A stretch of DNA of 64,000 nt from Bryum argenteum (taxonomy: Eukaryota > Streptophyta > Bryopsida > Bryales > Bryaceae), in contig CM073326.1 in the NCBI GenBank assembly GCA_037043015.1, positions 1,488,001 to 1,552,000 of the forward strand, in the 5' to 3' direction. Shown here one piece after another: positions 40,368-64,000 of this stretch; positions within the stretch are counted from its first letter, which is position 1; each line of letters begins with the position of its first letter. The position numbers and the translations under genes are program-made. The notes under the pieces are model-generated. The model was not told where the DNA came from, ran no database searches, and saw only the letters and a program-made list of their open reading frames with translations.

Positions 40368-40677
40368 TGTTGAAGATTAGATTGCTCGTAGTTATAAGAG
40401 CATCTAATAGTTATTAGAGTGTATTTATGTGAGGTATAGAGGCTAGGTCTTAGTCCTCTAGAGTGTGTGAAGAGGGCTGGTCCTAAGAGCCTTAGAGAGT
40501 GGAGAGAGGCCTTAGCCTCTCGGTTATCCCATATTGATTGTAGCACCATGTGCCTACCTATGGATATATAAGCAAGGGCTTGGAATGAGTATGCATCTCA
40601 TTCAAGCATTCATTGCTCTACTTGTTTGTAAGCTTTGATTGTTTGTATTCCTTCTCTCTCTCTATTGAGCTTCAATA
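40368..40677 (+). repeat. 5' LTR of B1
   Basis: Starts TGTTGAAGATTAGATTGC and ends GAGCTTCAATA, i.e. TG...TA, not TG...CA. A TATA region (TGGATATATAAGCAAGGG) lies at about 40560-40577. Confidence 0.93.
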
Positions 40678-40691
40678 GGTTATGGGCCCAC
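40678..40691 (+). other. Primer-binding site, half-tRNA type
   Basis: GGTTATGGGCCCAC is complementary to the anticodon arm of initiator tRNA-Met (GGGCCCATAACC), the arrangement known for Drosophila copia. The same site occurs at 55615, 59253 and 62754, and inverted at 54641-54652. Confidence 0.85.
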
Positions 40692-41539
40692 TACTCTTGT
40701 AGTGAGGTTGAGTTGGAATACATTTGGAGGCTTGGGGAGGTCTTGGAGGTGTTGCAAGCACATGTTGGGCTGATTTGCACTACTTGGAGGTCCTTGGAGC
40801 TTTGGTGGTGCACTTGGAGCCATTTGGAGGTGGTTGCAACCATTTGGAGGCGTTTTGTGGGGATTTGGAGTATTTGGAGGCAATTGGAGTGCTTTGAAGG
40901 TGTTTGGAGGTCTCTTGAAGGCATTGGAGGATTGTAAACTTCCTTTTGTCTTACTTTGAGTGTACAGTAACACAAGGAGGTGCTGATTTGCATTTTTGGC
41001 TACCAAATCCCTTGTTTGGAGTAGTTTTGAGCTTTGGAGTGCTAATTGTGAGTTACTTGAGTGCACTTGAAGTTTTGAGGGCTGATTCTAACACTTGGGG
41101 TGCATGTGTGCACACAAGGGGCTGATTTGTGCATTTGTGGTGCTAAAGTGGTGCTTTGAGACTCCTTAGCTTAGATTTGAGTGTTTTGAAGGTCTAGAAG
41201 CTTTGTTGACATTGATTGAGGGCTGATCTAGTGGAGAGCGTGCACAAGTGCTCATTTGTGTGCAATAGGGGCTGATTTGAGTGCTTTGAGGTGCATACTA
41301 ACATTTTGAGTGTTGGAGAGATCTAGATCTAGCATTTGGAGGTCAAATAGCTTGAGTGTGATGTGATCTGATTTGAGTGGGGAGCAAGTGGATCTTGCTT
41401 GTTTGAGTGTTGGAGAGGCTGATTGTGCATTGTTGTGTGCACAAGTGTGTTTTTTTGCACACTCCTAAGGGGCTGATTTGAGTGCTTAGGTGGTAGATTT
41501 GAGTTGTTGGTGTTGTAAGGGCAGCGTTTGTATCTAGCG
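40692..41539 (+). repeat. Family-B leader with GGAGGTGTTTGGAGC-like repeats
   Basis: An 850-bp untranslated leader. Its first 250 bp are degenerate repeats of a 12-18 bp unit (GGAGGTG, TTTGGAGCC, GCAACCATT); the remainder carries recurring CTGATTTGAGTGCTTTGAGG words. Repeat number differs among the family-B copies. Antisense ORFs of the KWLQTPPNGSK type are shadows of this repeat. Confidence 0.85.
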
Positions 41540-44500: not shown

Positions 44501-45555
44501 CTTCTCTAGAAGCCATGCGGATCACTCCTTGTATGTGAAGCAAACAAGGGAGTTCGTTGTTGATTGTGATCATCTATGTTGATGATTTGATTATCTTGGC
44601 TAGTAATGATGCGGTTTTGAGGTGGTTGAAGGCCAAGCTTGAGAAGGAGTTTGAAATGAGTGATTTTGGGCCTTTGGAGTTTTGCCTTGGTGTTGCGTTT
44701 GAGAGGAATCGCAGCAAACGCACCATCACCATGAGCCAAAGCAAGTACATTGAGGAGGTGCTAAAGCGGTTCAAGATGGAGGATTGCAAGCCCATTGGAA
44801 CTCCTCTTGATGTGAAGGGGTCGTTGTTGAAGCTTTCGGATGAGGAGTTCAAGGAGGTTGAAGAGGAGATGAAGGCCATCCCATACAAGGCAGCGGTGGG
44901 ATCGTTGATGTATGCAATGGTGGCCACAAGGGCTGACCTTGCATTTCCGGTAAGCATGGTGAGCCAATTCATGGCAAAGGCTGGTCCTCAACATTGGATG
45001 GCGGTAAAACGCATCTTGAGGTACTTGAAAGGCACCATTGACAAACAAATTGTGCCTTGGCGGTAAGGACATTGAGTTGAAGGATACTGCGATGCGGATT
45101 GGGCGGGTGATGTGAATGAGCGCCGGTCCACTACGGGGTATGTGTTCTTTGTAGGAGAAGGTGCAATCTCGTGGAATTGCAAGAGGCAACCCACGATAGC
45201 GGTGTCTACTACGGAGGCGGAGTACATGGCAACAAGTCATTGCTTGAAGGAGGCATTGTGGTTGCGGCAACTATTGGAGGATGTTGGGTTGGTGCAAAGT
45301 GGAGCAACGAGGATCATGTGCGACAACCAAGGGTGTATTGCACTTGCCAAGGACCCCAAGCACCACTCACGTACAAAGCACATTGATGTGCAACACCATT
45401 TCATTCGAGAGATGTTGGAGGATGGAGAGGTGAGCTTGTGTAGTATTGTCCAACGGAGGAGATGGTGGCTGATGTGTTGACCAAGGCGCTTGCTAAGGTG
45501 AGGCACGAGAAGCTAACAAAGGCGATGGGATTGCGAGGAAGTAACTACTCGCAAA
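41540..45555 (+). pseudogene. B1 gag-pol polyprotein, frameshifted
   Basis: Gag starts at MASFEGESVRVLEKFNG (41540); UBN2 gag runs to about 42130; zinc knuckle CFNCGKPGHIARYC at 42200-42241; protease MDSGATKHMT at 42409; GAG-pre-integrase HRRLGHLNV and CEGCIEGK (42815-42945); integrase core with HSDVCGPF, RSDNGE and TPQQNGVVERAN (43000-43310); RT with [12 protein letters not shown] (about 44312) and YVDDLIIL (about 44577); RNase H with [29 protein letters not shown] (45085-45380) and [17 protein letters not shown] before the LTR. All catalytic motifs are recognisable, but about ten small indels break the frame. Confidence 0.92.
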
Positions 45556-45562
45556 GTGGGAG

Positions 45563-45872
45563 TGTTGAAGATTAGATTGCTCGTAGTTATAGGAGCATCT
45601 AATAGTTATTAGAGTGTATTTATGTAAGGTATAGAGGCTAGGTCTTAGTCCTCTAGAGTGTGTGAAGAGGGCTGGTCCAAAGAGCCTTAGAGAGTGGAGA
45701 GAGGCCTTAGCCTCTCGGTTATCCCATATTGATTGTAGCACCATGTGCCTACCTATGGATATATAAGCAAGGGTTTGGAATGAGTATGCATCTCATTCAA
45801 GCATTCATTGCTCTACCTTGTGTGTAAGCTTTGATGTTTGTATTCTCTCTCACCCTCTATTGAGCTTCAATA
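45563..45872 (+). repeat. 3' LTR of B1
   Basis: 310 bp, colinear with 40368-40677, ends GAGCTTCAATA before CAAAGCTCC. Confidence 0.93.
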
Positions 45873-48800
45873 CAAAGCTCCAAGGACCTCCATCTTGCTT
45901 GTTTGAGTGATTTGTTGATTTAGAACCTTCTTGACCTCCATAGATTCCAAAAGTATTAACTCAACCTCACTACAACAAGTGTGGGCCCATAAGGCATTGA
46001 GATTCATTTGAGTGCTTTGAGGTGCATACAACACCTTGTGGGTGTGGGGAAGCCTAGATCTAGCATTTGAATGCTTGAAATGAGATTGAGTGCCTTCAAA
46101 TTTGAGTGGGAGGAAGTGGATCTTGCTTGTTTGCAGTGTTGAAGAGCCTTGTGCACATTTCACAAGTGTGTTTGGCACACATGGCGCTGATGCCCCTTTG
46201 TTTAGGTGGTAGACTTGGGTTGCCTCCTAAAGTCAACAAAGTGGGCTGCGTTTCTCTCCTAGCCATTGGCTTCTTTTGCCCCTTTGACACTCTAGAATAC
46301 TAAGTAAAAGTTCAACGGCATATAACTTCCACTCTTTGGAAAGTTTAAGATCTTATGGCGCTCTCTTCCATGGACTTCTGGGAGATTGTAAATGGCATGC
46401 AAATCACCAATAGGACATCAAATTCAGACAAGGACGTGAATGTGGTGAAGTAGGGTGAGGAGGCCACTTGTCAAGATGCGATTTGTTGATGCATCCAAGT
46501 GGGAGTTTCAAGAGCCACTATGGTGATTGGAAGCATGGTGGGTGCAACTCCAACATCCATGAGACAAGAGGCTTAAGTTTGGCCAACATCCCTAAAGGAG
46601 CGCAAGAGTTCGAAATAAAGGAAGATGGAGGATGTGGAGGTTGAACTTGAATGAGCACTTCAACAAGATTGAAGACTTGCGGATCAACTTGCGAGGCCCA
46701 TGTGTATCCAATAAGGAGAGGATATTGTTGGTGAGTGGTGGTGATAAACCATCTTCTTCCACCATCTATTGAGGTTGGCTTTAAATCTTATTTGTTTTTG
46801 ATGATCTTTGATGGAGGTTGTGGTGTCAAGGTTGTTGCATGAAGTGTGGGAGTTGACCAACAAAACAATGGCTCATGGGAAGTGGCTTTGTTGCGTTGGT
46901 GCAAGATAGTTAGAGGATGGGAGGATGCAAAATGGGCAAATGGAGGACGTGCTTGGGTGATATGTTGACCAAGGCGTTTACCAAGGTATTGAGGCACAAG
47001 GAGATGGGATTGCGAGGAGAAAACTGTTGCAAAGTGGAAACAAAGAGATTAGGTTGAGGAGTATGTTTATAAGCACCCCGTAGTTATTAGCAATGAGGAG
47101 ATGTTAAGTAATAGAGGCTAGGTCTTAAATGGTGATGGAGATGGTCAAGGCTTAGAGAGAGAGGAGTGATGGGACTTAGCCTCTTGGTTATCCCATATTG
47201 TTTGTAGCACCATTTCAAACATATGGGTACATATCAAGGGCACGAATGAGTATGTATCTCATGGGAGATCATAGTATTGTGCATGCGGTCGGAGTTGGCA
47301 CCATTGTTTGGAGGTGAAGGTGACCCTCTATTGAGCACAAAATCAACATAAAGGAGGTTCTTCACATCCCAAAGTTAAAGAGAAATTTGTTATCCATAGC
47401 AGTTTTGATTGCATTTGGAGCATCTTTGAGTTTGATGATAATACATGCATTGAGAGGCTGATTTGAGCTCTTGTGAGTGAATAGGAATTTAATTGGTGAG
47501 TTTGATGAGAGATCTAGATCTAGATTTAAATGCTGATTTCAATGTATGAGTGCATTGGTGAGTTGGAGACGGCTAGTTTGCCACAATCTTTTGAGTGAGC
47601 TACAGGTAGGCTTCTTGCATTTGTAATGAAGGATTTGAAGGTCCTTGAAAGGATGTTAAAGTGATTAGGGCAAATCGAGGAATAGTTCATCAAATTCTGA
47701 ATTCGTGAGCACTTGTGAGCTTTGGGGAGTGATTGTGAGTCAATTTGGATCCCTTGTCAAGATGCGGATGTGGAGATGCATCCAAGCTCCTTGAGGTGTA
47801 GATTGGACAATTATGAAGACATTGTGGTTAGTGGCTGAATTGAAGAACTTCTTGCCTAGGAAGCTCATGCTTAAGTTGAGCAAGATTAGGGTCTGATTTG
47901 GTAGTGAGTGTGGTGATAGACTTGGGAGATGTGGTGTTTTTGCGGTCCATGGAAGATTGAAGATGGGCTCCTTGTGAGGACCAAGGGGTATCGAATAAGG
48001 GAGAGGAGCGCCATTGCCTTTCCTTTAGGGATTGTGGGAGCTTGAGTTGACCAAACAAGACATCTAGACATCTAGTATGGCCAATGGTGGGAGCTACTTG
48101 GCTTTGTTGCCAAACGTGAAGGAGAGGAGATGATAGTAAGAGGATGGAGAGGAGAGTTCAACGGTGTCAAATAAAGATTAGGTTGGTGATATGTTTATAA
48201 GAGCAACTAGGTAGTTATTAGAGTATGATGGGATTAAGTAGGAGAAAACTAGGTCTTAGTCCTCTAGGGTATGTGAAGAGATTGGGTTCCTAAAAGTTTT
48301 AAGAGCAACTAAGAGAGGACTTATTAGTGTTATCCCATATTGTTTGTAGCACCATGAGCAACTAATGTTGAAGAATAGTGTTGGAATTAGATGTATCTCA
48401 TTCAAGCAATCATTGCTCATGGATTGTGGGGAGCTTTGATGTTGTATTTTTTCAACTCCTTTGAGCCTCAATAGGTTATGGGCTGCCAACTCTTGTAGTG
48501 AGGTTGAGTTTGAAACATTTGGAGGATGGAGAAGGAGGTGTTGCACACACTTATCGGGCTGATTTGACAGCTTGGGGCAGAGAGAGAGAATGTGGAGCCA
48601 TTTGGAGGTGTTTGCAAACCATTTGAATGAATGTTTTGAATGAGAGCCATTTGGAGGTGTTTCCAAACCATTTGGAGCTTTTATATCCATTTGGAGCCAT
48701 TTGGTGGTACAATCAATATGGGGTGTTTAACCGATTTGGTGCTAAGGCCTCTCTCCAGCCATTTGGAGGTGTTTGGACATGATTTGAGGAATTTCGAGGC

Positions 48801-49555
48801 AATTGGAGGATTTTGGAGGTGTTTGGAGGTCTCTTGAAGGCATTGGAGGATAAATACACTCTAATGTCTTATTAGAGTGCTCTTATACGAGAGGCTGAGC
48901 AATCTAATCTTCAACAATTAGTTGCTCTTATAAAGGGGCTGATTTGAGCAACCTGGTGCAGAGAGAGGTGTCTTGAGGCTCCTAAGTTGAGATTTGAGTG
49001 ATTTGAGGTTCATGAAGCTTATTTGACATTGATTGGGCTGATCTAGTCTAGGAGTCACACAAGTGCTCATTTGGAAGCATTATGGGTGTTCAAAATCTCT
49101 CCTCTTCTCGCCAACAAAGTTTATAAGATGCAACTAATAGTTACTAGAGTATCTTAGAGTTGTCTTGTTTGAGGCTAAGTCTTAGTCCTCTAGGGTGTGT
49201 GAAGAGGGCTGGTCCTAAAAACTTAGAGAGATCATCAAAAACAAATAACATTTTCGTTCAATCCCATATAGTTTGGAAGAACCATTTGTTTAACCATCAT
49301 GAACACAAGTGACCTCCTCTTCTTTAATGGATAGTATGTATCTCATTCAAGCATTCGCCCCTCTTCGATCCTCATGTGACTCAACCTCCACATTGTTTGT
49401 ATTCTTTTCACCCTCTATTGAGCTTCAATAGGTTATTCTCCAACTTGTAGTGAGGTTGAGTTAGAATACATTTGGAGGCTTGGAAATTGGAGTTGCATCC
49501 ATCCCAATCACCATAGTGGCTCCAAACTCCCACTTGGATGCATCTCTACATTCGC
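45873..49555. other. Interleaved mosaic of family-B fragments
   Basis: No gene survives. Phrases of 15-60 bp from different parts, and in places opposite strands, of family-B elements alternate. 46780-47060 switches between gag sequence (as near 57600) and the 3' end (as near 58790). 49230-49450 switches between a plus-strand LTR and the reverse complement of the region matching 60740-61000. 46005-46340 continues the leader interrupted at 40367. 49440-49555 belongs to the minus-strand gag-only element that resumes at 55036. Either a consensus-calling artefact over collapsed repeats or real scrambling. Confidence 0.75.
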
Positions 49556-49940
49556 TATTGAGATTCCATAGAGGAAGAGAGAGAATACAACACACTCAAA
49601 GCTTACAAACAAGTAGAGCAATGAATGCTTGAAATGAGATATTGCCTTCTAACAAAGGCCTTTACTTATACTTCCTTATTGGCACCTTCCTAGTGCCTTC
49701 TTGTACATTTTCCAAGTGCCTTTGGCCCACATGGTTCACATGTGTGCCCCTTTAGTCTTTGCCACCACCTACTTGCCTCCTATAGTCAACAAAGTGGGCT
49801 GGTCTTTCTCTCCCTCACTATTGCTCTTACGACCAGCCCCTTTTCACACTCTAGAATACTAAGTATAAGCTTCCATATATATATATACTCTAACAAGTAC
49901 TAATTGCTCTTATAAACTACGAGCAATCTATTCTTCAACA
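49556..49940 (-). repeat. 3' LTR of B2
   Basis: 385 bp; on the minus strand starts TGTTGAAGAATAGATTGC and ends GGAATCTCAATA. Contains a (TA)n run near 49880. Confidence 0.94.
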
Positions 49941-52900
49941 CTCCCACTTTGCGAGTAGTTACCACCTCGCAATCCCATCGCCTTTGAAAGCTTCTCGTGC
50001 CTCACCTTAGCAAGCGCCTTGGTCAACACATCAGCCACCATATCCTCTGTTGGACAATACCACAAGCTCACCTCTCCATCCTCCAACTTCTCTCGAATGA
50101 AATGGTGTTGCACATCAATGTGCTTCGTGCGAGAGTGGTGCTTCGGATCCTTTGCAAGAGCAATACACCCTTGGTTGTCACACATGATGCTCGTGGCTCC
50201 CCTCTGCACAAACCCAACATCCTCCAATAGTTGCCGCAGCCACAATGCCTCCTTTAAGCAATGGCTCGTTGCCATGTATTCCGCTTCCGTAGTAGACACC
50301 GCTATTGTGGGTTGCCTCTTGCAATTCCACGAGATTGCGCCATCTCCTACAAAGAACACATACACCTGGATCGTGGATCGGCGCTCATTTACATCACCCG
50401 CCCAATCCGCATCACAATACCCCTTCAACTCAAGGTCTTTACCTCTCCACTTGTAATCAATGGTGCCTTTCAACACCTCAAGATGCGTTTTACCGCCATC
50501 CAATGTTGAGGACCAGCCTTTGCCATGAATTGGCTCACCATGCCACCGGGAATGCAAGGTCAGCCCTTGTGGCCACCATTGCATACATCAATCCGCTGCC
50601 TTGTATGGAATGGCCTTCATCTCTTCTTCAACCTCCTTGAACTCCTCATCCGAAAGCTTCAACAATGACCCCTTTACATCAAGAGGGGTGCCAATGGGCT
50701 TGCATTCCTCCATGTTGAACCGCTTGAGCACCTCCTCGATGTACTTGCTTTGGCTCATGGTGATGGTGCGTGCGCTGCGATTGCGCTCAAATGCAACACC
50801 AAGGCAAAACTCCAAAGGCCCAAGATCACTCATCTCAAACTCCTTCTCAAGCTTGGCCTTCAACCACTGCAACACCGCATCATCACTAGCCAAGATAATC
50901 AAATCATCAACATAGATGATTACAATCAACAAGAACTCCCTTGTTTGCTTCACATACAAGGAGTGATCCGCATGGCTTCTAGAAAAGCCTTCTTTGATAA
51001 AAAACAAGTCAATCCTTTGGTACCACGCCCTTGGAGATTGCTTGAGCCCGTACAACGACTTCTTGAGCCTGCAAACAAGGTGTTGGGTGCCCTCCTCCAC
51101 AAAGCCAAGGGGCTGGTCCATGTAGATGTCCTCCTCCAACTCACCATTCAAGAACGCCGTCTTGACATCCATTTGGTGAATCTCCAAGTCCATGGCTGCC
51201 CCAATCGCCAACATGCATCGTATGGTGGTAAACTTGGCCACGGGTGCAAAGGTCTCATGGAAATCCACACCCTCCACTTGAGAGAAGCCCCTTGCCACCA
51301 AGCGTGCCTTGTAACGCACCACGTTGCCTTGTGCATCCCTCTTGGTCCTAAACACCCACTTACAACCAACACTTTTGCGGCCTTTTGGCAATGGGGCCAA
51401 CTCCCATGTGCCATTGGCCATTAGAGATGCATACTCCTCTTGCATGGCCAACTCCCACTTGTTTGCATCTACACTTTGCAAAGCATCACCCAAAGTTAAA
51501 GGATCATCAAAACAAGCCACATTTGCACGTTCTACCTCACTAGGTGGTGGGAGAATGTGGTTCATCCACCACTCGCCAAGCGGCCGCCTCTCCCTTGTGG
51601 GGTACCTTGAACCTTGTGTTCGTTGCCCCTCTCCAATCTCCTCATCTTGTGGTTGCCTCTCCTCCACAACCTCCTCCTCTTGTTTGTCTTGTTGCTCTTC
51701 TTCAACTTCTCGAGCAAGCGGCGCTGAAATTGGAGGTGCATCCACTACAATCACCGTAGGTGGCTCCAAACTCCCACTTGGATGCATCTCCACATTTGCA
51801 TCCGCACAAGTAGCGTCCTCCGCAAACACCACATCACGACACTTGAGGATCTTCTTAGTCTCCAAACACATCAACCTATATGCCTTGGTGCCTTCACAAT
51901 AACCAAGGAACAAACACCTTGTGCCCTTTGCATCAAGTTTAGTCCTTTTCTCATCCGGCACCTTTGCATAAGCAATACAACCAAATACACGCATGTGTGT
52001 GATAAGAGGCCTCTTACCACTCCATGCCTCTTCGGGTGTCTTACCAACAAGTGCACTAGTTGGGCACCTATTTCGTGTGTACACCGCTGTAACCACCGCT
52101 TCCGCCCAAAGGTTCTTGTTGAGGTTTTGGTGGTGTAGCATGCTCCTTGCCATCTCCACAATTGTGCGGTTTGCACGCTCCGCCTCTCCATTTTGTTGTG
52201 GTGTTTAGGGTGTTGATAGTTGCCTCTCAATGCCATATGCTTGAAAAAAGCGCTCAAATGCCTTGGAAGTAAACTCCCCTCCATTGTCGGATCGAAACGC
52301 CTTGATCTTGTGCTCCGATTGCTTCTCCACAAGCGCCTTGAACTCCACAAACTTGGCAAACACCTCTCCTTTGGACTTCAACACATACACCCACACCTTT
52401 CGAGAGAAGTCATCTATGAAAGTCACAAAATACAAGCAACCACCCATGGAAATGGTCTTGAATGGACCACACACATCCGAATGAATCAACTCCAATGGCT
52501 TGCTTGCACGCTGACCTCCCTCACTTGGAAATGGAGTCCTTGAAAGCTTGCCTTCAATGCAACCCTCACAAAGCGCTGAATTTGATGCACCATCCTTGAT
52601 TTGCATGCCATTCACCATGCTTTCAAGAGCCTTGACACTCTTGACATTCAAATGCCCAAGGCGTCTATGCCATAGCTCCAAAGGCGCTGATTGTGGCAAT
52701 GGAAGCGCCACATTTGCCATCTCATGCATGGAGAAGGGCATTTCATACAAACTCCCTACTCTAGGCAATCTAGCAATCACCTTCCTATTGGCTGCCCTCA
52801 CAAGGCATGCATCATCATCAAATTCTACCTTTAAACCGTTTAAAGCAAGTTTTACAACCGAAATCAAGTTCCTCTTGAACTTGGGGATATGGAGCACCTC

Positions 52901-53951
52901 CTTCATGTGGATCTTGTGCTTCACTCCCATCACCATCACCTCCTCAACAATTGTACCAACACCAACCGCATGCACAATGCTATCATCTCCCAAGTGCACA
53001 TTGCGTGGTGGTGAAATTACCTCATACGTTTGGAACGCTGCCCTATGCGGCGTCATGTGTTTGGTGGCTCGAATCCATGACCCACGTGGCCATGGTGTTG
53101 TCATCTCCATCGTTGATTGCCATAGCATGCTCCTCCTCTTTCTCCACCTTGCTTGCAACAAAGGCGCTTAGAAACGCATAGTCCTCTCCATTGTCTTTGT
53201 TGCTTGCTAGGTTTGCACTCTCCTTCTCCTTCTTCTTGTTTAAGAAGCAATGCCTTGCAATGTGGCCCGGTTTGCCACAATTGAAGCACAACCTTGGGCC
53301 ATTTTGCATCCTCGCTTTGTTTTGGGCCGCCACCAACGGTGCCTCACCACTTTGAGCGCCCTTCTCCTTCCGCTTGGACACTTCATGCATCAACCTTGAC
53401 ACCACAAACTCCATTGTAAGGTCAGCAAGGTTTAAGGTCTCTAAAGCGGTGATCAAACTCTCAAATGAAGGTGGCAAGCTATCCAATAACGTCATCACTA
53501 TATCGTCCTCCTTCATTGGCACTTCCAAGCAGGCGAGCTGATCCGCGAGTGCCTTGATGTTGTTGATGTGCTCCAACAAGTCAGCGCCTTCCTCCATCTT
53601 GATTGTGAAGAACTTGCGCCTCAAGAAGAGGATATTGGCCAAACTTCTTGTCTCATGAATGTTGCAAAGCACCCTCCATGCTTCCGCTGGTCCTTTGCAA
53701 CTCTTGATGTGAGCAAGTTGGGCATCCACCAAATTGAGCCCAATCATGGACATGGCCTTCCTCACCCTCCTTTGGTAGTCCTTCTTGTCCTTGTCACTTG
53801 CATCAGATGGTGGAGCCTCCTCCGTGCCTTCAACAATCTCCCACAAGTCCATGGAAGAGAGCGCCAAGTTCATCTTGAACTTCCACAAGTTGAAATTGGT
53901 GCCATTGAACTTCTCAAGCACCCTAACACTCTCACCCTCCAAAGTGGCCAT
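49941..53951 (-). pseudogene. B2 gag-pol polyprotein with few lesions
   Basis: The longest pol remnant here. Gag from MATLEGESVRVLEKFNG (53951) with zinc knuckle CFNCGKPGHIARHC near 53290-53248. A 2-bp loss at the protease motif (MDS..ATKHMT, about 53080) shifts frame. Pre-integrase and integrase run to about 52205, where a TAA replaces the Tyr codon of PYTPQQNG. 52159-50588 encodes the integrase C-terminus and RT with [12 protein letters not shown] and YVDDLIIL. A small deletion after KAA near 50587 shifts frame, then RNase H 50584-49928 with CDADWAGDV and [15 protein letters not shown]. Only about four lesions separate it from an intact polyprotein; I do not reconstruct it. Confidence 0.93.
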
Positions 53952-54652
53952 AGCCAAGCACACACGCTGCCCTTACGACACCAACAACTCAAGCGAGCTA
54001 CCAAGCACTTAAATCAGCTTCCTACTAGTGTGTAAACACACTTGTGCACAAAACAATGCACAAAAGTCCTTCTCTATACTCAAACAAGCAAGATCCACTT
54101 GCTCCCACTCAAATCAGATCATAAACAAGCTTCTACAACTCCAAATCACTCAAATGTAAGTAGAAGAGCCTCAATTGACCTCCTTAGCACCTCACTAGCT
54201 CAAATCAGCCCCTTGTGTGCAAACAAGCACTCCAAATGCTAGATCTAGCTCTTACAAATCAATAGGCGCACTAATAGATCACAAACCACCCTTCTAAGCT
54301 CACAATCACTTCAAACAAATGACTTGGGAGCCCTTAATGCAAATCAACACCTACAATGTGCAAGGACGACTCAATTCAACTACAATGGACACTTACAAGC
54401 ACCCAATGCCCTCAAAACACCTCCAAACACCTCCAAATTGCTCCTTTTGCCTCCAAATGCTCCAAATCAACTTCAATTGACTCCAAATGGTTGCAAACAC
54501 CTCCAAATGGCTCTAAGTGCACCTCCAAAGCTCCAAGGACCTCCAACATGTGCAAATCAGCCCTCCACGTGCTTGCAACACCTCCTTGACCTCCCCAAGC
54601 CTCCAAAAGTATTCAAACTCAACCTCACTACAAGAGTAGTGGGCCCATAACC
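53952..54652 (-). repeat. Leader and primer-binding site of B2
   Basis: Leader of the family-B type, with CCTCCAAATGGCTCC-like repeats (54405-54560 on the plus strand) next to the PBS. Shorter than the B1, B4 and B6 leaders. Confidence 0.85.
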
Positions 54653-55035
54653 TATTGAGATTCATTAGAGGAAGAGAGAGAATACAACACACTCAAAGCT
54701 TACAAACAAGTAGAGCAATGAATGCTTGAAATGAGATATTGCCTTCTAACAAAGGCCTTTACTTATACTTCCTTATTGGCACCTTCCTAGTGCCTTCTTG
54801 TACAATTTCCAAGTGCCTTTGGCCCACATGGTTCACATGTGTGCCCCTTTAGTCTTTCCCACCACCTACTTGCCTCCTATAGTCAACAAAGTGGGCTGGT
54901 CTTCTCTCCCCTTACTATTGCTCTTACGACCAGCCCCTTTTCACACTCTAGAATACTAAGTATAAGCTTCCATATATATATACTCTAACAAGTACTAATT
55001 GCTCTTATAAACTACGAGCAATCTATTCTTCAACA
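54653..55035 (-). repeat. 5' LTR of B2
   Basis: 383 bp, near-identical to 49556-49940; its outer end abuts the TTCGC duplicate. Confidence 0.94.
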
Positions 55036-55551
55036 TTCGCATCTCGACAAGTGGCCTCCTCCGCAATCACCACATCACGAGCCGCTGAATTTGATGTACT
55101 ATTCTTGATTTGCATGCCATTTACCATCCTTTCAAGGACCTTCAAATTCTTCACATTCAAATGCCTAAGGCGCCTATGGCGTAGCTCCAAAGGCGCTGAT
55201 TGTGGCATTTGGTGTGCCACATTGGCCATATCATACATGAAGAAGGGCATTTGATACAAACTCCCTTCTCTTGGCAATCTAGCAATTACATTCCTATTTG
55301 CAGCCCTCACAATGCATGCATTATCATCAAACTCCACTTTTAAGCCATTAAGAGCAAGCTTTGCTATGGATAACAAATTTCTCTTTAACTTTGGGATGTG
55401 GAGAACCTCCTTTATGTTGATTTTGTGCTTTACTCCCATCACCTTCACCTCCTCAACAATGGTGCCAACTCCGACCGCATGCACAATACTACCATCTCCC
55501 AAGTGCACATTTCGTGGTGGTGATATTACCTCATATGTTTGAAATGCTGCC
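55036..55551 (-). pseudogene. Gag-only family-B element B3, protease/pre-integrase fragment
   Basis: The minus strand reads VHLGDGSIVHAVGVGTIVEE, EVLHIPKLKRNLLSIAKLAL and HRRLRHLNVKNLKVLERM, then jumps from SNSA to RDVVIAEEATCRDANVE, skipping the integrase core. B2 interrupts it at 55035; the rest (PSGSLEPLW region) continues at 49555-49440. The other end breaks at 55551 against a plus-strand LTR fragment. Confidence 0.85.
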
Positions 55552-56756
55552 CTCTACATTGTGTGTGTAAGCTTGATGTTTGTATTCTCTCTCACCCTCT
55601 ATTGAGTCTCAATAGGTTATGGGCCCACTACCCTTGTAGTGAGGTTGAGTTTGAATACATCTGGAGGCTTGGAGAGGTCACGGAGGTGTTGCACACACTT
55701 AGAGGGCTGATTTGCACTCCTTGGAACATTGGAGGTGCATTCGGAGCCATTTGGAGGTGTTTGCAACCATTTGAATGTGTTGTGAGGTGATTTGGAGCCA
55801 TTTGGATGTGTTTGCAACCATTTGGAGCATTGGAGGTGCATTTGGAGCCATTTGGAGGTGTGTGCAACCTCTTGGAGGTGTTTGCAACCATTTGGTGCTT
55901 TGGAGGTGTACTTGGAGCCCTTTGGAGGTGTTTGGAGGTGATTTGGTGCTTTGGAGGTGTACTTGGAGCCCTTTGGAGGTGTCTGGAGGTGATTTAAGGC
56001 ATTAGAGGATTGTGAGCTTCCCTTGTCTTGGTTAGAGTGTTTCTAACACAAGAAGGGGCTGATTAGAGCATTTGTGGTGCATGTGTGCACACAAAGGGCT
56101 GATTTGTGCATGTGTCGTGCAAGAGAGGTGTCTTGAGGCTCCTAAGTTGAGATTTGAGTGATTTGAGGTTCATGAAGCTTATTTGACATTGATTGAGGGC
56201 TGATCTAGTGTAAGGAGTGCAGAAGTGCTCATTTGGAAGCATTGTGGGCTGATTTGAGTGCTTAGAGGTGCAAATTCACCTTGTGTGTGTAGTATACATC
56301 TAGATCTAGTATTCGGAGGTCAAATAGCTTGAGTTTGATTCAATTTAATGGAAGCAAGTGGATAATGCTTGTTTAGGTGTAGTAGCAAGTGGATCTTGCT
56401 TGTTTGAGTGATTTGTTGATTTAGAAGCTTCTTTGACATAGATTGAGGGCTGATCTAGTGTAGGGAGTGCACAAGTGCTCATTTGGAGGCATTGAGGGCT
56501 GATTTGAGTGCTTTGAGGTGCATATACACCTTGTGGGTGTGGGCGAAGCCTAGATCTAGCATTTGGACGTCAAAGAGCTTGAGTGTGATCAAATTTGAGT
56601 GGGAGCAAGTGGATCTTGCTTGTTTGAGTGTTGAAGGAGATTATTGTGCATTGATTTGTGCACAAGTGTGTTTGCACACTCCGAAGGCGCTGATTTGAGT
56701 GTTTAGGTGGTAGACTTGGGTTGTTGGTGTCGTAAGGGCAGCGTTTGTGTCTAGCC

Positions 56757-58526
56757 ATGGCTTCTTTTGAGGGTGAGAGTGTAAGGGTGCTTGAAAAGTT
56801 CAACGGCAACAACTTCCACCTTTGGAAATTTAAGATGAACCTGGCGCTCTCTTCCATGGACTTGTGGGAGATTGTTGAAGGCACGGAGGAGGCACCACCA
56901 TCTCATGCAAGTGACAAGGACAAGAAGGAGTACCAAAGGAGGGTGAGGAAGGCCATGTCTGTTAGAGATTAGGTCGTAGTTTAAAAGAGCAACGAATAGT
57001 TATTAGAGTAAGTAATAGAGGTTAGGTCTTAGTCCTCTAGAGTGTGTGAAGAGGGCTGGTCCTAAGAGCCTTAGAGAGTGGAGAGAGGCCTTAGCCTCTC
57101 GGTTATCCCATATTGATTGTAGCACCATGTGCCTACCTATGGATATATAAGCAAGGGCTTGGAATGAGTATGCATCTCATTCAAGCATTCATTGCTCTAC
57201 CATAAGGTGTAAGCTTTGATGTTTGTATTCTCTTTCACCCTGTATTGAGTTTCAATAATTTCCATGATTGGGCCCAATTTGGTGGATGCCCAACTTGCTC
57301 ACATCAAGCGATGCAAAGGCCCAGCGGAAGCATGGAGGGTGCTTTGCAACATCCATGAGACAAGAAGTTTGGCCAACATCCTCTTCTTGAGGCGCAAGTT
57401 CTTCACAATCAAGATGGAAGAAGGGGCTGACTTGTTGGAGCACATCAACAACATCAAGGCACTTGCGGATCAACTTGCTTGCTTGGATGTGCCCATGAAG
57501 GAGGAGAATATTGTTATGACCTTGCTTGATAGTCTCCCATCTTCATTTGAGCACTTGATAACGGCTTTAGAGACCTTGGCCCTTGCTGATCTTACGATGG
57601 AGTTTGTGGTGTCAAGGTTGATGCATGAAGTGTCCAAGCGGAAGGAGAGGGGTGCTCAAAGTGGTGAGGAAGCGTTGGTGGCGGCTCAAAACAAAGGGAG
57701 GATGCAAAATGGGCCAAGGACGTGCTTCAATTGTGGCAATCCCGGCCACATTGCAAGGTATTGCTTCCAAGACAAGAAGCAGAAGGAGAGAGCCAGTGTT
57801 GCAAGAAACAAAGACAATGAGGAGGAGTATGCCTTTATAAGCGCCGTTGTTGCAAGCAAAGAGGAGATGTTGGAAGAGCATGCCTTTGCAAATGGAGATG
57901 GAGATGACAACACCATGGCCAAGTGGATCATGGATTCGGGAGCCACCAAGCACATGTCACCTCATAGGGCAGCATTTCAAACATATGAGGTACTATCACC
58001 ACCACGAAATGTGCACTTGGGAGATGGTAGTATTGTGCATGCGGTCGGAGTTGGCACCATTGTTGAGGAGGTGAAGGTGATGGGAGCAAAGCACAAAATC
58101 AACATAAAGGAGGTTCTTCACATCCCAAAGTTAAAGAGAAATTTGTTATCCATAGCAAAGCTTGCTCTTAATGGCTTAAAAGTGGAGTTTGATGATAATA
58201 CATGCATTGTGAGGGCTGCAAATAGGAATGTAATTGCTAGATTGCCAAGAGAAGGGAGTTTGTATCAAATGCCCTTCTCTATGTATGATATGGCCAATGT
58301 GGCACACCAAATGCCACAATCAGCGCCTTTGGAGCTACGCCATAGGCGCCTTGGGCATTTGAATGTGAAGGATTTGAAGGTCCTTGAAAGGATGGTAAAC
58401 GGCATGCAAATCAGGAATAATTCATCAAATTCAGCGGTTCGTGATGAGGTGATTGCGGAGGAGGCCACTTGTCGAGATGCGGATGTGGAGATGCATCCAA
58501 GTGGGAGTTTGGAGCCACTATGGTGA
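56757..58526 (+). pseudogene. B4 gag-protease ORF, split by a solo LTR
   Basis: 56757-56959 encodes MASFEGESVRVLEKFNG to RRVRKAMS; after the LTR the frame resumes at 57264 (MIGPNLVDAQLAHIK) and stays open for 420 residues to 58526. It contains UBN2 gag, zinc knuckle CFNCGNPGHIARYC (57722), protease MDSGATKHMS (57930) and GAG-pre-integrase HRRLGHLNV (about 58345). It then jumps from NSSNSA to RDEVIAEEATCRDADVEM and ends SGSLEPLW. Relative to B1 about 730 bp of integrase core is gone, with CG shared at the junction. The long open frame is striking in an element lacking RT. Confidence 0.9.
56960..57257 (+). mobile_element. Solo family-B LTR in B4 gag
   Basis: 298 bp, TGTTAGAGATTAGG...TTTCAATA, flanked by ATGTC (56955-56959) and ATTTC (57258-57262), a 5-bp duplication with one change. 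Removing it rejoins gag codons for AMSMIG. It independently confirms the TG...TA ends of this LTR family. Confidence 0.9.
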
Positions 58527-58940
58527 TTGGGGTGGATGCAACTCCAATTTCAGCGTGCGTTGTACAAGAGGCTTAAGTTGGAGAAGAGCCTAAAGGAGTG
58601 CAAGAGCCGAAAGAGACAGAAGAGGAGGATGTGGAGATTAAATAACACGAGGAAGATTGAAGAGGGGCACCGTGCACAAGACCCATGGTATCGAATAAGA
58701 GAGAGGAGGTCACTTGAGTGCATGCAAGCAAGGGGGAGTTGACCAAACAAGAGAAGTAGACATCTAGTATGGCCAATGGCACATGGGAATTGGCTTTGTT
58801 GCCAAATGCGCGCAACATAGTTAGAGGATGGAGAGGAGAGCTTGAGGTATTACCAAATGGAGGACATAGTGGGTGATATGTTGACCAAGGCGTTTACCAA
58901 GGTGAGGCACAAGGAGATTCGGTTGCTCGTAGTTTATAAG
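58527..58940 (+). pseudogene. B4 3' remnant after the second deletion
   Basis: After the integrase C-terminal linker (RERRSLE, 58700) and MANGTWELA-like sequence (58768-58800), the sequence jumps to the end of RNase H (DGEESLRYYQMEDIVGDMLTK, 58830-58890). About 1.3 kb of RT and RNase H is missing relative to B1. It ends in the first bases of a 3' LTR. Confidence 0.8.
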
Positions 58941-60177
58941 TGTTGAAGATTAGATTGCTCGTAGTTATAAGAGCATCTAATAGTTATTAGAGTGTATTTA
59001 TGTGAGGTATAGAGGCTAGGTCTTAGTCCTCTAGAGTGTGTGAAGAGGGCTGGTCCTAAGAGCCTTAGAGAGTGGAGAGAGGCCTTAGCCTCTCGGTTAT
59101 CCCATATTGATTGTAGCACCATGTGCCTACCTATGGATATATAAGCAAGGGCTTGGAATGAGTATGCATCTCATTCAAGCATTTATTGCTCTACATTGTG
59201 TGTGTAAGCTTTGATGTTTGTATTCTCTCTCACCCTCTATTGAGTCTCAATAGGTTATGGGCCCACTACCCTTGTAGTGAGGTTGAGTTTGAATACATCT
59301 GGAGACTTGGAGAGGTCACGGAGGTGTTGCACACACATAGAGGGCTGATTTGGTGCTTTGGAGGTGTACTTGGAGCCCTTTGGAGGTGTCTGGAGGTGAT
59401 TTAAGGCATTAGAGGATTGTGAGCTTCCCTTGTCTTGGTTAGAGTGTTTCTAACACAAGAAGGGGCTGATTAGAGCATTTGTGGTGCATGTGTGCACACA
59501 AAGGGCTGATTTGTGCATGTGTCGTGCAAGAGAGGTGTCTTGAGGCTCCTAAGTTGAGATTTGAGTGATTTGAGGTTCATGAAGCTTATTTGACATTGAT
59601 TGAGGGCTGATCTAGTGTAAGGAGTGCAGAAGTGCTCATTTGGAAGCATTGTGGGCTGATTTGAGTGCTTAGAGGTGCAAATTCACCTTGTGTGTGTAGT
59701 ATACATCTAGATCTAGTATTTGGAGGTCAAATAGCTTGAGTTTGATCCAATTTGAGTGGGAGCAAGTGGATCTTGCTTGTTTGAGTGTAGGAGCAAGTGG
59801 ATCTTGCTTGTTAGAGTGATTTGTTAATTTAGAAGCTTCTTTGACATAGATTGAGGGTTGCTCTAGTGTAGGGAGTGCACAAGTACTCATTTGGAGGCAT
59901 TGAGGGCTGATTTGAGTGCTTTGAGGTGCATATACACCTTGTGGGTGTGGGGGAAGCCTAGATCTAGCATTTGGACGTCAAAGAGCTTGAGTGTGATCTG
60001 ATTTGAGTGGGAGGAAGTGGATCTTGCTTGTTTGAGTGTTGAAGGAGATTATTGTGCATTGATTTGTGCACAAGTGTGTTTGCACACTCCGAAGGCGCTG
60101 ATTTGAGTGTTTAGGTGGTAGACTTGGGTTGTTGGTGTCGTAAGGGCAGCGTTTGTGTCTAGCCATGGCTTCTTTTG
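58941..60177 (+). mobile_element. Family-B fragment B5 (5' LTR, leader, gag start)
   Basis: LTR 58941-59252 (312 bp), PBS at 59253, leader 59270-60164 with a very short GGAGGTG array, and gag ATG at 60165, followed after about 12 nt by a junction with inverted sequence. It was inserted into the 3' LTR of B4. Confidence 0.88.
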
Positions 60178-60451
60178 GCCCATCTTACACACACAATGTA
60201 GAGCAATGAATGCTTGAATGAGATGCATACTCATTCCAAGCCCTTGCTTATATATCCATAGGTAGGCACATGGTGCTACAATCAATATGGGATAACCGAG
60301 AGGGTAAGGCCTCTCTCCACTCTCTAAGGCTCTTAGGACCAGCCCTCTTCACACACTCTAGAGGACTAAGACCTAGCCTCTATACCTCACATAAATACAC
60401 TCTAATAACTATTAGATGCTCTTATAACTACGAGCAATCTAATCTTCAACA
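60178..60451 (-). repeat. Inverted family-B LTR, truncated
   Basis: The reverse complement of the LTR type at 58941, from TGTTGAAGATTAG (60451) to GTGTGTAAG (about 60183). The last 60 bp of the LTR are deleted and ATGGGCC of the PBS follows. It lies inside the 3' LTR of the minus-strand element that continues at 60452. Confidence 0.88.
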
Positions 60452-62440
60452 ATTATTTGCTCTTATAAACTACGAGCAACCTAATCTCTAACACTCCCAC
60501 TTTGCGAGTAGTTTTCATCTCGCAATCTCATCTTCTTGTGCCTCAGCTTGGTAAACACCTTGGTCAACATATCACCCACTATGTCCGCCATTTGGTTATA
60601 CCTCAAGCTCTCCTCTCCATCTTGCCAACAAAGCCAATTCCCATGTGCCATTGGGCATACTAGATGTCTACTAGTCTTGTTTGGTCAACTCCCACTTGCT
60701 TGCATGCACACTTTGCAAAGCATCGCCCAAACTCAAAGTATCATCAAAAACAAATAAGATTTGCACGTTCAACTTCAATAGATGGTGGAAGAATATGGTT
60801 TAACCACCACTCACCAAGTGACCTCCTCTCCTTTATTGGATACCATGGGGCTTGTTTACGTTGCTCCTCTTCGATCTTCCTCATGTGACTCAACCTCCAC
60901 ATCCTCCTCTTCTGTCTCTTTCGTCTCTTGCACTCCTTTAGGCTCTTCTCCAACTTAAGCCTCTTGTACAACGCACGCTGAAATTTGTAGTTGCATCCAT
61001 CCCAATCACCATAGTGGCTCCAAACTCCCACTTACATGCATCTCCACATTCGCATCTCGACAAGTGGCCTCCTCCGCAATCACCACATCACGAGCCGCTG
61101 AATTTGATGTCCTATTCTTGATTTGCATGCCATTTACCATCCTTTCAAGGACCTTCAAATTCTTCACATTCAAATGCCCAAGGCGCGTATGGCGTAGCTC
61201 CAAAGGCGCTGATTGTGGCATTTGGTGTGCCACATTGGCCATATCATACATAGAGAAGGGCATTTGATACAAACTCCCTTCTCTTGGCAATCTAGCAATT
61301 ACATTCCTATTTGCAGCCCTCACAATGCATGCATTATCATCAAACTCCACTTTTAAGCCATTAAGAGCAAGCTTTGCTATGGATAACAAATTTCTCTTTA
61401 ACTTTGGGATGTGGAGAACCTCCTTTATGTTGATTTTGTGCTTTGCTCCCATCACCTTCACCTCCTCAACAATGGTGCCAACTCCGACCGCATGCACAAT
61501 ACTACCATCTCCCAAGTGCACATTTCGTGGTGGTGATATTACCTCATATGTTTGAAATGCTGCCCTATGAGGTGACATGTGCTTGGTGGCTCCCGAATCC
61601 ATGATCCACTTGGCCATGGTGTTGTCATCTCCATCTCCACTTGCAAAGGCATGCTCCTCCAACATCTCCTCTTTGCTTGCAACAACGGCGCTTACAAAGG
61701 CATACTCCTCCTCATTGTCTTTGTTTCTTGCAACACTGGCTCTCTCCTTCTGCTTCTTGTCTTGGAAGCAATACCTTGCAATGTGGCCGGATTGCCACGG
61801 GTGAAGCACGTCCTTGGCCCATTTTGCATCCTCCGTTTTGGCCATTTTTGCATCCTCCCTTTGTTTTGAGCCCGCCACCAACGCTTTCTCACCACTTTGA
61901 GCACTCTCCTTCCTCTTGGACTTGAAAGACTTTCATGCATCAACCTTGACACCACAAACTCCATCGTAAGATCAGCAAGGGCCAAGGTCTCTAAAGGGAT
62001 TATCAAGTGCTCAAATGAAGATGGGAGACTATCAAGCAAGGTCATAACAATATCCTCCTCCTTCATGGGCACATCCAAGCAAGCAAGTTGAAGTTGAAGT
62101 GCAAACCCCTTGTCAATCAATGTTGTTGATGGCATCCAACAAGTCACCTCCCCTTCTTCCATCTTGGGATTGAAGAACTTGATCTTCATGTCAGGGAAGA
62201 AGAATATGATCATCCACCAATCTTGGCCAAACTTGGGTATCTTGGATGGATGGGCTGCCGTGGCCCTCCATGCTTCCGTGCTGGTCCTTTGTTGAACTCT
62301 TGATGATGTGTAACACCACCTCCTTGGGCATCCACCATCTTCATCCCACTTCTTCAATGTCATGGACATGGCCTTCCACACCCTACTTTGGTACTCCTTC
62401 TTGTCCTTGTCACTTGCATGAGATGGTGGTGCCTCCTCCG
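60452..62440 (-). mobile_element. Gag-only family-B element B7, inverted relative to B4
   Basis: Minus strand: 3' LTR start 60493-60452 (TGTTAGAGATTAGGTTGC), purine tract 60494-60511, RNase H tail, then RT-less middle, pre-integrase, protease (MDSGATKHMS, about 61600), degraded zinc knuckle (GHIARYC) and gag to 62440, where B6 interrupts. It carries the same two deletions as B4 (SNSA-RDVVIAEEATC, and the jump from NWLCW to the DIVGDMLTK tail). 62090-62400 has many extra bases and is garbled. Confidence 0.88.
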
Positions 62441-64000
62441 TGTTAGAGATTAGGTTGCTTGTAGTTTATAAGAGCACCTAATAGTTATTAGAGTATGTTA
62501 GAGTAAGTAATAGAGGCTAGGTCTTCGTCCTCTAGGGTGTGTGAAGAGGGCTGGTCCTAAAAGCCTTAGAGAGAGTGAAGAGAGGACTTAGCCTCTCGGT
62601 TATCCCATATTGTTTGTAGCACCATGTGCCTACCTATGGATACATAAGCAAGGGCTTGGAATGAGTATGTATCTCATTCAAGCATTCATTGCTCTACCTT
62701 GTGTGTAAGCTTTGATGTTTGTATTCTCTCTCACCCTCTATTGAGCTTCAATAGGTTATGGGCCCACTACTCTTGTAGTGAGGTTGAGTTTGAATACATT
62801 TGGAGGCTTGGAGAGGTCAAGGAGGTGTTGCACACACTTAGAGGGCTGATTTGCACTGCTTGGAGCATTGGAGGTGCATTTGGAGCCATTTGGAGGTGTT
62901 TGCAACCATTTGAATGTGTTTTGAGGTGATTTGGAGCCATTTGGAGGTGTTTGCAACCATTTGGGGCTTTGGAGGTGCATTTGGAGCCATTTGGAGGTGT
63001 GTGCAACCACTTGGAGGTGCTTGCAACCATTTGGAGCTTTGGAGGTGTACTTGGAGCCATTTGGAGGTGTTTGGAGGTGATCCGAGGCATTTGGAGGCAA
63101 TTGGAGCATTTTGGAGGTGTTTGGAGGTGATCTGAGGCATTTGGAGGCAATTGGAGCATTTTGGAGGTGCTTGGAGGTCTCTTGAAGGCATTGGAAGATT
63201 GTGAGCTTCCCTTGTTTTGGTTAGAGTGTTTCTAACACATGAAGGGGCTGATTTGAGCATTTGTGGTGCATGTGTGCACACAAGGGGCTGATTTGAGCAT
63301 TTGTGGTGCAAGAGAGGTGTCTTGAGGCTCCTAAGTTGATATTTGAGTGATTTGAGGTTCATGAAGCTTATTTGACATTGATTGAGGGCTGATCTAGTGT
63401 AGGGCGTACACAAGTGCTCATTTGGAAGCATTGTAGGCTGATTTGAGTGCTTAGAGGTGCACATTCACCTTGTGTGTGTAGTAGACATCTAGATCTAGTG
63501 TTTGGAGGTCAAATAGCTTGAGTTTGATCCAATTTGAGTGGGAGCAAGTGGATCTTGCTTGTTTGAGTGATTTGTTGATCTAGAAGCTTCTTTGACATAG
63601 ATTGAGGGCTGATCTAGTGTAGGGAGTGCACAAGTGCTCATTTGGAGGCATTGAGGGCTGATTTGAGTGCTTTGAGGTGCATATACACCTTGTGAGTGTG
63701 GAGGAAGCCTAGATCTAGGATTTGGACGTCAAAGAGCTTGAGTGTGATTTGATTTGAGTGGGAGCAAGTGGATCTTGCTTGTTTGAGTGTTGGAGGGGCT
63801 TATTGTGCATTGTTTTGTGCACAAGTGTGTTTGCACACTCCTAAGGGGCTGATTTGAGTGTTTAGGTGGTAGATTTGAGTGCTTGGTGTTAGGGCTGCGT
63901 TTGTGCTTTGCCATGGCTTCGTTGGAGGGTGAGAGTGTTAGGGTGCTTGAGAAGTTCAATGGCACCAACTTCAACCTGTGGAAGTTCAAGATGAACTTGG
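62441..64000 (+). mobile_element. Family-B element B6, cut by the window end
   Basis: 5' LTR 62441-62753 (313 bp), PBS GGTTATGGGCCC at 62754, leader 62770-63912 with a long GGAGGTG array (62860-63190), and gag from ATG 63913 (MASLEGESVRVLEKFNG) open to the window end. The upstream 5-mer CTCCG (62436-62440) is the predicted left target duplicate; the right one is outside. It is inserted in the gag of B7. Confidence 0.92.

Follow-up and report, generated by a model that had tools for sequence, protein, structure and literature searches.

A gag-protease-only Copia retrotransposon of Bryum argenteum that multiplied in its deleted form and is a probable Gag donor moved in trans

Family B is a group of long terminal repeat (LTR) retrotransposons present in a 64,000-nucleotide stretch of Bryum argenteum DNA (assembly GCA_037043015.1, contig CM073326.1, here C6; positions 1488001–1552000, referred to as the window). 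The genome comprises 258.8 Mb in 25 contigs, and ten of the contigs encountered are 16.8–44 Mb long. Two defective kinds of element are considered here: dpol, the form that retains gag and protease (PR) only, which is the type of B3, B4 and B7 in the window, and dgag, a subfamily that lacks gag and bears pol. Retrotransposition multiplied the deleted dpol form in recent, separate events. Sequence comparisons further suggest, at roughly two chances in three, that dpol is a long-lived, semi-autonomous Copia Gag donor that is moved in trans, with dgag as the probable main source of its enzymes.

The family belongs to the Ty1/copia LTR retrotransposons. This follows from the Copia-type gag, the position of integrase (IN) before reverse transcriptase (RT) in the pol-bearing relatives, the two LTRs, a primer-binding site (PBS), a polypurine tract (PPT) and a 5-bp target duplication. 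A dpol element reads, in order, LTR, leader, Gag, PR, stop, remnant and LTR. The LTR is ~311 bp long (TGTT..AATA), with GGTTATGGGCCCAC directly after it and then a leader of 0.6–1.1 kb. The GGTTATGGGCCCAC that follows each LTR (e.g., at 59253–59266) presumably pairs with the anticodon arm of initiator tRNA-Met of plants, which would mean half-tRNA priming of the kind known from Drosophila copia. About 487 codons encode Gag, a zinc knuckle and a protease-like region, and the LTRs, PBS, leader and PPT are retained. In a Pfam comparison of the frame of one copy, Retrotran_gag_2 (1.9e-43), zf-CCHC and Pol_BBD (1.7e-22) were matched, gag_pre-integrs was matched in part and below its cut-off, and neither rve nor RVT_2 was found at E ≤ 0.01. 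Retrotran_gag_2 was matched by B2 as well. The leaders (e.g., 55800–56020 and 62930–63170) contain a minisatellite of the GGAGGTGTTTGGAG type, which is variable in length.

The founding deletions of dpol are a loss of ~0.73 kb from the IN core and one of ~1.28 kb from RT/RNase H (RH), to which a common early stop is added. An earlier note on this DNA had described one IN-core junction for B3, B4 and B7, and this was borne out: the junction reads TCAAATTCAGCGG[C/T]TCGTGATG.. in all three, where B1 and B2 carry ~0.73 kb of IN core. The 33-bp junction pattern, searched with up to 3 mismatches, has 107 matches genome-wide (54 on the plus and 53 on the minus strand) and none when reversed. The 100 places listed are spread over 13 contigs, and the junction is thus not merely local. 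The undeleted site was found by its 5' side (100 matches, 87 of them within 2 mismatches) and by its 3' side (165 matches), each with a control of zero, and the two sides lie ~731 bp apart in full copies.

The second deletion, ascribed by the same note to B4 and B7, is confirmed by alignment with the RT of B2 (RT_B2), which halts at 464 (B4) or 443 (B7) and picks up at 1751 or 1752, respectively. Among 58 distinct junction copies, RT picks up again at B2 coordinate 1747–1792 in 44, and in 41 of these at 1750–1752; the last position ahead of the gap is 380–471 in 43 copies and 117 in one. All 44 copies that can be traced to this second break have the RT/RH loss in common, and the other 14 are interrupted before it, whether by another insertion, by additional loss or because the sequence runs out. 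B4 and B4-like copies show an extra loss of ~0.1 kb. The frame across the junction was read in 55 copies, 52 of which stop at +99 (51 as SGSLEPLW and one as SGSLEPQW); in two the frame continues to +165, and in B3 it ends at +69, at the B2 insertion. The nested B2 cuts B3 off 60 nt past the point where the junction motif begins. The elements of the window and their parts are:

40368–45872, plus strand: B1, a gag and pol relative with a broken frame; LTRs 96.5% alike and of the type of the gag-less elements
49231–49558 (about), minus strand: distal part of B3, on the far side of B2, which retains the common +99 stop
49555–55035, minus strand: B2, a gag and pol relative nested in B3; 384-bp LTRs 97.7% alike, broken frame, target duplication GCGAA
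55031–55553, minus strand: proximal part of B3, with PR and the junction motif (55062–55094), as far as the B2 insertion
55552–59252, plus strand: B4, a dpol element, with a 5' LTR truncated at 55552, leader, gag start at 56758, solo LTR in gag, gag-PR, junction, stop at 58526, remnant and 3' LTR
56961–57257, plus strand: solo LTR splitting the B4 gag; flanks ATGTC/ATTTC, a 5-bp target duplication with one mismatch
57249–58526, plus strand: open gag-PR frame of B4, 425 codons, across the junction to the common ..SGSLEPLW stop
58425–58457, plus strand: junction motif of the IN-core deletion in B4, with the break at ~58437–58439
58815–58819, plus strand: RT/RH deletion point of B4, from the comparison with RT_B2
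58941–59252, plus strand: 3' LTR of B4, TGTTGAAG type, then a second leader and gag start to ~60177
60184–60451, minus strand: second LTR, truncated, nested in the 3' LTR of B7
60452–62440, minus strand: B7, a dpol element, frameshifted; junction motif 61075–61107, RT/RH deletion ~60629–60633, partial 3' LTR 60452–60492
62441–64000, plus strand: B8, another dpol element (5' LTR, leader, gag start), inside the B7 gag; target duplication CTCCG

That the deleted form itself multiplied, as had been proposed, is shown by the ends of its copies. The 5' end region was examined in 22 dpol copies, and both LTR ends were placed in 16. Exact 5-bp target duplications are present in eight of these 16 (TAAAT, AGGAT, TTATC, ATCAC, ATTTT, CTTAC, ATTGG and CTCCT), for which the chance probability is ~1e-20, and the two LTRs of these eight differ at 0/313, 6/311, 2/311, 0/311, 0/311, 1/311, 1/311 and 2/313 positions (0–2%). 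B8, which has CTCCG on both sides, is a ninth such copy. The 3' LTR was placed in 41 dpol copies: eight abut another leader, and the remaining 33 have 32 different flanks.

A long open gag-PR frame had also been claimed for dpol. This holds at the level of the family. In the window, the 425-codon frame of B4 starts only at the end of the solo LTR, the first gag codons (56758–56960) lying upstream of that LTR, and B7 is frameshifted; B4 and B7 are therefore decayed family members. With the 215-residue capsid of B2 as the query, 150 of 1108 gag candidates were scored, of which 47 are tied to a listed junction, 29 to an undeleted integrase start and 74 to neither. The stop-free frame is at least 490 codons long in 32 of the 47 dpol copies, and one of the 29 full-type copies, located outside the clusters described below, has a frame of at least 1300 codons.

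The earlier note proposed that gag be tested for purifying selection, and the result is that the dpol capsid does not look neutral. The test covered the first 800 nt of gag in 38 of 55 aligned dpol rows (38 of the 107 copies); the 17 rows under 93% identity, mostly misaligned nested insertions, were excluded. As the loci were partly chosen as best matches to B4, the sample leans to good copies. Variants private to one copy have a nonsynonymous to synonymous count (N:S) of N79:S33, with an omega of ~0.79 that is indistinguishable from neutral, whereas those present in at least three copies have N28:S36, with an omega of 0.26 (p = 9e-8). After polarisation with outgroups, private variants are N70:S23 (omega 1.0) and shared variants N20:S31 (0.21; Fisher p = 3e-5). 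The same contrast is seen in capsid subgroup 4 (13 copies; private N33:S18, shared N5:S14). The dead RT linker served as a control in 54 of 57 copies (three rows dropped), with the limit that constraint on it may be loose in live elements too. Here, private variants are N49:S11 and shared variants N20:S6, at an expected ratio of 2.74; the linker thus shows no private/shared contrast, and its shared variants differ from those of the capsid (p = 0.005). Relative to full relatives, the capsid dN/dS of 33 dpol copies is 0.15 (B2) and 0.10 (B1), values which include the relatives' own time. Purifying selection on the dpol capsid is therefore supported, with a caveat about recombination that is taken up below.

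The candidate partner was found among pol-bearing elements. Four of these with the start motif GCGGTTTGTGAAGGGT were examined (L087–L090), and the first ~670 nt of gag-PR are absent from all of them. Instead, an ATG is joined in frame to the zinc-knuckle region, followed by PR-IN-RT-RH. One element (L089) has a single frame of 1126 codons; the other three are broken or interrupted. The dgag fusion has 22 matches in the genome (control 0), of which 18 precede an undeleted integrase start from the list above, whereas none precedes a listed dpol junction. In Pfam, the frame of one dgag copy matches Pol_BBD, rve, SH3_retrovirus and RVT_2 (5.6e-79) and has no Retrotran_gag_2, so that the dpol and dgag frames, one of each being compared, are mirror images (gag versus rve/RVT_2). 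When the 1125-residue dgag frame was used as the query, 41 of 3872 pol candidates were scored, and among these, three gag-less copies match the query end to end and are stop-free over PR-IN-RT-RH.

Like dpol, dgag is young. Fourteen gag-less copies were inspected, four whole and ten by their end pieces, and both LTRs were placed in six. Exact 5-bp target duplications flank four of the six (CAAGC, TACAA, TTTTG and AAAGG), and four have identical LTR pairs. The LTRs are 0–1.6% apart in five of the six; the sixth has two LTR types. From these similarly young LTR pairs, dpol and dgag were active at the same time. The two kinds also have the same signals. Their LTR ends are identical in kind (TGTT..AATA), the PBS is GGTTATGGGCCCACTACTCTTG in most of the copies compared (one has GGTCATGG..TTTTG), and the PPT motif GCAAAGTGGGAG is present without a mismatch in 31 of 41 copies of dpol and in both dgag copies compared. 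Their leaders are 85–95% alike over the first ~200 nt and 85–87% over the last ~330 nt. In the PR segment, 12 dpol copies are 86–89% identical to dgag (with two values of 80–81%) and 81–85% identical to B1/B2. This pairwise identity hints that dpol and dgag may be sisters. A tree of the PR-HHCC region (38 dpol, four dgag, B1, B2, one more full-type copy and one outgroup) places dpol apart and the four dgag together, but the far outgroup joined inside dpol on a long branch, the bootstrap is unsettled, and sisterhood is not settled by the tree.

LTRs were also exchanged or nested between the kinds, as indicated by a gag-less copy with mixed LTRs and by 4 of 41 dpol 3' LTRs, whose likeness to the dgag/B1 type reaches 95% or more. 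The mixed copy, at C5:19126647 (L094/L095), has a dpol-type 5' LTR and a dgag-type 3' LTR (28/307 positions differ) and no target duplication; it probably arose by ectopic recombination between the dpol and dgag kinds.

We propose the following mechanism. The RNA of dpol would enter particles made of its own and its relatives' Gag, and reverse transcriptase and integrase would reach it in trans. The likeliest main source of these enzymes is dgag, which has PR-IN-RT-RH behind an in-frame ATG, matches dpol in PBS, PPT and LTR ends, is similarly young and for the most part shares its clusters; some of the enzymes may also come from full-length relatives. Here, dpol would provide the excess of Gag that is missing from a one-frame Copia element, and dgag would provide the enzymes. 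Trans-complementation between the two is inferred by analogy with known biology, the particles of BARE1 packaging the RNA of BARE2 (PMC3735527). A stronger version is that dpol and dgag form an obligate bipartite LTR retrotransposon, in which the whole form is extinct in the clusters and two interdependent defective elements supply Gag on the one hand and protease, integrase and reverse transcriptase on the other. This version is rather doubtful, slightly more so because part of the candidates was scored in the searches for whole frames. If true, the Gag:Pol ratio would be freed from the one-frame Copia constraint, and the cluster, a putative centromere, would stay populated.

Several observations weigh against dpol as a Gag donor served mainly by dgag. 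Leader lengths vary between the kinds (1.09–1.13 kb in four dpol, 0.84 kb in B1, 0.68 kb in B2 and 0.58 kb in two dgag copies), and on C6, C7, C8 and also C9, dpol and dgag are densest in different windows. Eight of the 16 dpol copies with placed LTRs have no target duplication, with LTRs 0–9% apart. The capsid contrast is absent from subgroup 6 (13 copies; N27:S23 private, N9:S10 shared), where private variants are also sub-neutral (0.39). Constraint was also sought in the part from PR to the stop within dpol, and none was significant (private N48:S18, shared N14:S7). Finally, the capsid half is more diverse and is a mosaic, with parts nearest to B2; recombination therefore carried parts of the capsid from one subfamily to another, and the selection test is weaker for it. 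Shared capsid variants may in part come from recombination with full-length relatives, whose gag is also selected. Such exchange between subfamilies at the same time hints at common particles.

A rival explanation is that dpol is a plain parasite. It would be moved wholly by rare full-length relatives, its gag frame being passively inherited and refreshed by recombination, and dgag would be a second, independent parasite. In addition to the capsid mosaic and the lack of significant constraint in PR, this explanation draws on the scoring of part of the candidates and on one open, whole gag-pol frame of 1360 codons, which belongs to a sister subfamily and lies outside the clusters. It is opposed by the short frame being kept in 32 of 47 dpol copies when one of 29 full-type copies has its long one, bearing in mind that a shorter frame is easier to keep. 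The capsid contrast, moreover, survives the removal of sites that are polymorphic among the six outgroup rows (odds ratio 4.72, p = 3e-5), and the RT-linker remnant has no such contrast. Among the full-type cluster copies, the longest stop-free pol frame has 1234 codons and belongs to a copy in the C1 cluster; the capsid of this copy is split over two frames, which rules it out as a whole element. On balance, a plain parasite is unlikely.

The full-pol elements B1 and B2 had been put forward as candidate helpers; both of their frames are broken, and the gag-less, pol-bearing dgag is a likelier source of enzymes. Whole helpers are scarce among the scored candidates. Stop-free frames of 1234 and 1256 codons occur in two relatives, the first being the C1-cluster copy just mentioned and the second lying elsewhere on C1. 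A family that is 62% identical has stop-free frames of 1366 and 1230 codons, the 1366-codon one beside the C1 cluster. Either this 1366-codon frame or the 1360-codon sister frame could be a helper, and since 150 of 1108 gag and 41 of 3872 pol candidates were scored, intact whole copies may be missed; both considerations count against dgag as the main enzyme source.

Two further explanations concern the origin of the copies. Spread by segmental duplication or a satellite-like process, without transposition, is highly improbable. It can account for a minority: one 3' flank is common to two C2 copies, eight of the 41 placed 3' LTRs abut another leader, and six junction copies on C7 form an array with ~1.195 kb spacing, whose units are 98–99% alike in the 2.6 kb read. 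As the main cause it is ruled out by the exact target duplications and the varied flanks given above. Less credible still is that the junction is a retrotransposed splice product, namely a Gag subgenomic RNA like the spliced RNA made by the one-frame Copia element BARE1 (PMC3735527), since the removed segment never begins with GT and ends with AG at any placing of the break, which excludes a splice origin, and the RT/RH loss is a second, separate deletion.

The C7 array (C7:319473–325449; read as L110, C7:319300–321900) is a tandem repeat whose unit comprises the junction with the ~350 nt preceding it, the remnant and the 3' LTR; neighbouring units are ~99% alike. It represents a satellite in the making, derived from the deleted element.

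Among the top-ranked results of searches in open-licence literature, no pair of defective LTR retrotransposons that complement each other was described. TR-GAG elements are short LTR elements in which the gag frame is kept and RT and IN are absent. The earlier note had likened dpol to this class, and the mode of life fits: by this definition, the gag frame is kept, RT and IN are absent (in the one dpol frame compared), and the element multiplied as a family. The fit is incomplete in that the dpol frame also holds a zinc knuckle and the protease-like region matched by Pol_BBD.

Among known pairs, dpol/dgag is best read as a Copia counterpart of the wheat pair RLG_Cereba/RLG_Quinta. In Einkorn wheat, RLG_Quinta is a Gag-encoding, non-autonomous centromeric element and a proposed Gag donor, with a PBS, PPT and LTR ends like those of its partner, and its gag recombined between lineages (PMC11302176). 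The pair is Gypsy with a CR-domain integrase, however, the Quinta frame has a DUF beside GAG, and Cereba encodes all proteins (PMC11302176), whereas the young pol-bearing dgag has no gag capsid. RLG_Beth and RLG_Ava of oat are likewise a proposed centromeric non-autonomous/autonomous pair with alike LTRs, PBS and PPT; in the part of the report used here, the function of the Beth protein is unknown and is not described as Gag, and Ava is a CRM element (PMC13270711). Wheat RLG_Sabrina_SA, termed "semi-autonomous", and RLG_WHAM encode Gag and protease only, as does dpol, but are Gypsy elements with almost no similarity to their proposed autonomous partner (PMC9744471), whereas dpol and its relatives are mostly 81–89% identical in the PR segment.

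For dgag, the closest likeness is to BARE2 of barley, a Copia element that is unable to produce Gag and relies on another element's particles for packaging (PMC3735527), as dgag would have to. BARE2-like, dgag does not encode capsid (one frame tested) and has kept pol (three stop-free copies). The two differ in their defect, which is a lost gag start codon in BARE2 and a deletion of the capsid coding region in dgag. They also differ in their partner: BARE1 makes both products (PMC3735527), whereas dpol, the abundant source of Gag, itself has no pol. In Physcomitrium patens, tRLC5/RLC5 is a Copia family with full-length and truncated members, in one cluster per chromosome that is a possible centromere; truncated members are expressed, and polymorphic tRLC5/RLC5 insertions were reported (PMC7466625). 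The likeness to family B, as drawn from that description, lies in the Copia affiliation, the full-length and shortened members and, in part, the clustering. The portion of that paper considered here does not state which genes tRLC5 lost and does not mention a gag-less partner (PMC7466625).

The Einkorn study asks whether cooperating retrotransposon pairs shape plant centromeres beyond Triticeae (PMC11302176), and a second, differently built pair has since come from oat (PMC13270711). The present elements add a candidate pair of the Copia type from a far smaller genome; both halves can be counted and dated, and the partner has no Gag capsid. If trans-complementation is true, it would make a split retrotransposon comparable to bipartite viruses, would be one answer to the source of excess Gag in one-frame Copia elements, and would suggest a role for "truncated" clustered elements such as tRLC5.

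The copies are clustered in the genome. On each of C1–C10, the densest 300-kb window was located for each set separately; these windows make up 1.2% of the length. They hold 65 of the 95 listed junction matches on these contigs (six being the C7 array), with 30 outside, together with 57 of 90 in the undeleted set and 14 of 18 in the gag-less set. The densest windows agree on C1, C3, C5 and C10, and those of dpol and the undeleted set also on C2, C4 and C9; on C6, C7 and C8 they do not coincide. A second junction group is present on C6, C7 and C9, and several clusters are near contig ends. By analogy with RLC5 of P. patens and Sphagnum, the clusters are putative centromeres (PMC7466625, PMC9946827).

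C1 (44.1 Mb) has gag relatives, mostly 84–91% identical to the B2 capsid, along its whole length, whereas the listed copies of other contigs lie mostly in the clusters. Possibly C1 is a sex chromosome or is rich in elements for another reason. The repeat (TTTAGGG)4 has 1221 exact matches (997 plus, 224 minus, overlaps counted), and the listed places are all interior to C1, away from its ends.

Within the window, earlier element limits were superseded once the 311-bp LTR had been mapped. B7 ends at 62440 because the dpol copy B8 inserted into its gag; the junction of B8 itself lies outside the window, at C6:1553278. At 58940–60177, a second leader and gag start directly abut the 3' LTR of B4. 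They belong to a further copy, either nested or in tandem; plants are known to have LTR elements in tandem (PMC11899658). Between B1 and B2, at 46300–49100, lies a third, remoter Copia relative, roughly 65–77% identical to pieces of family B.

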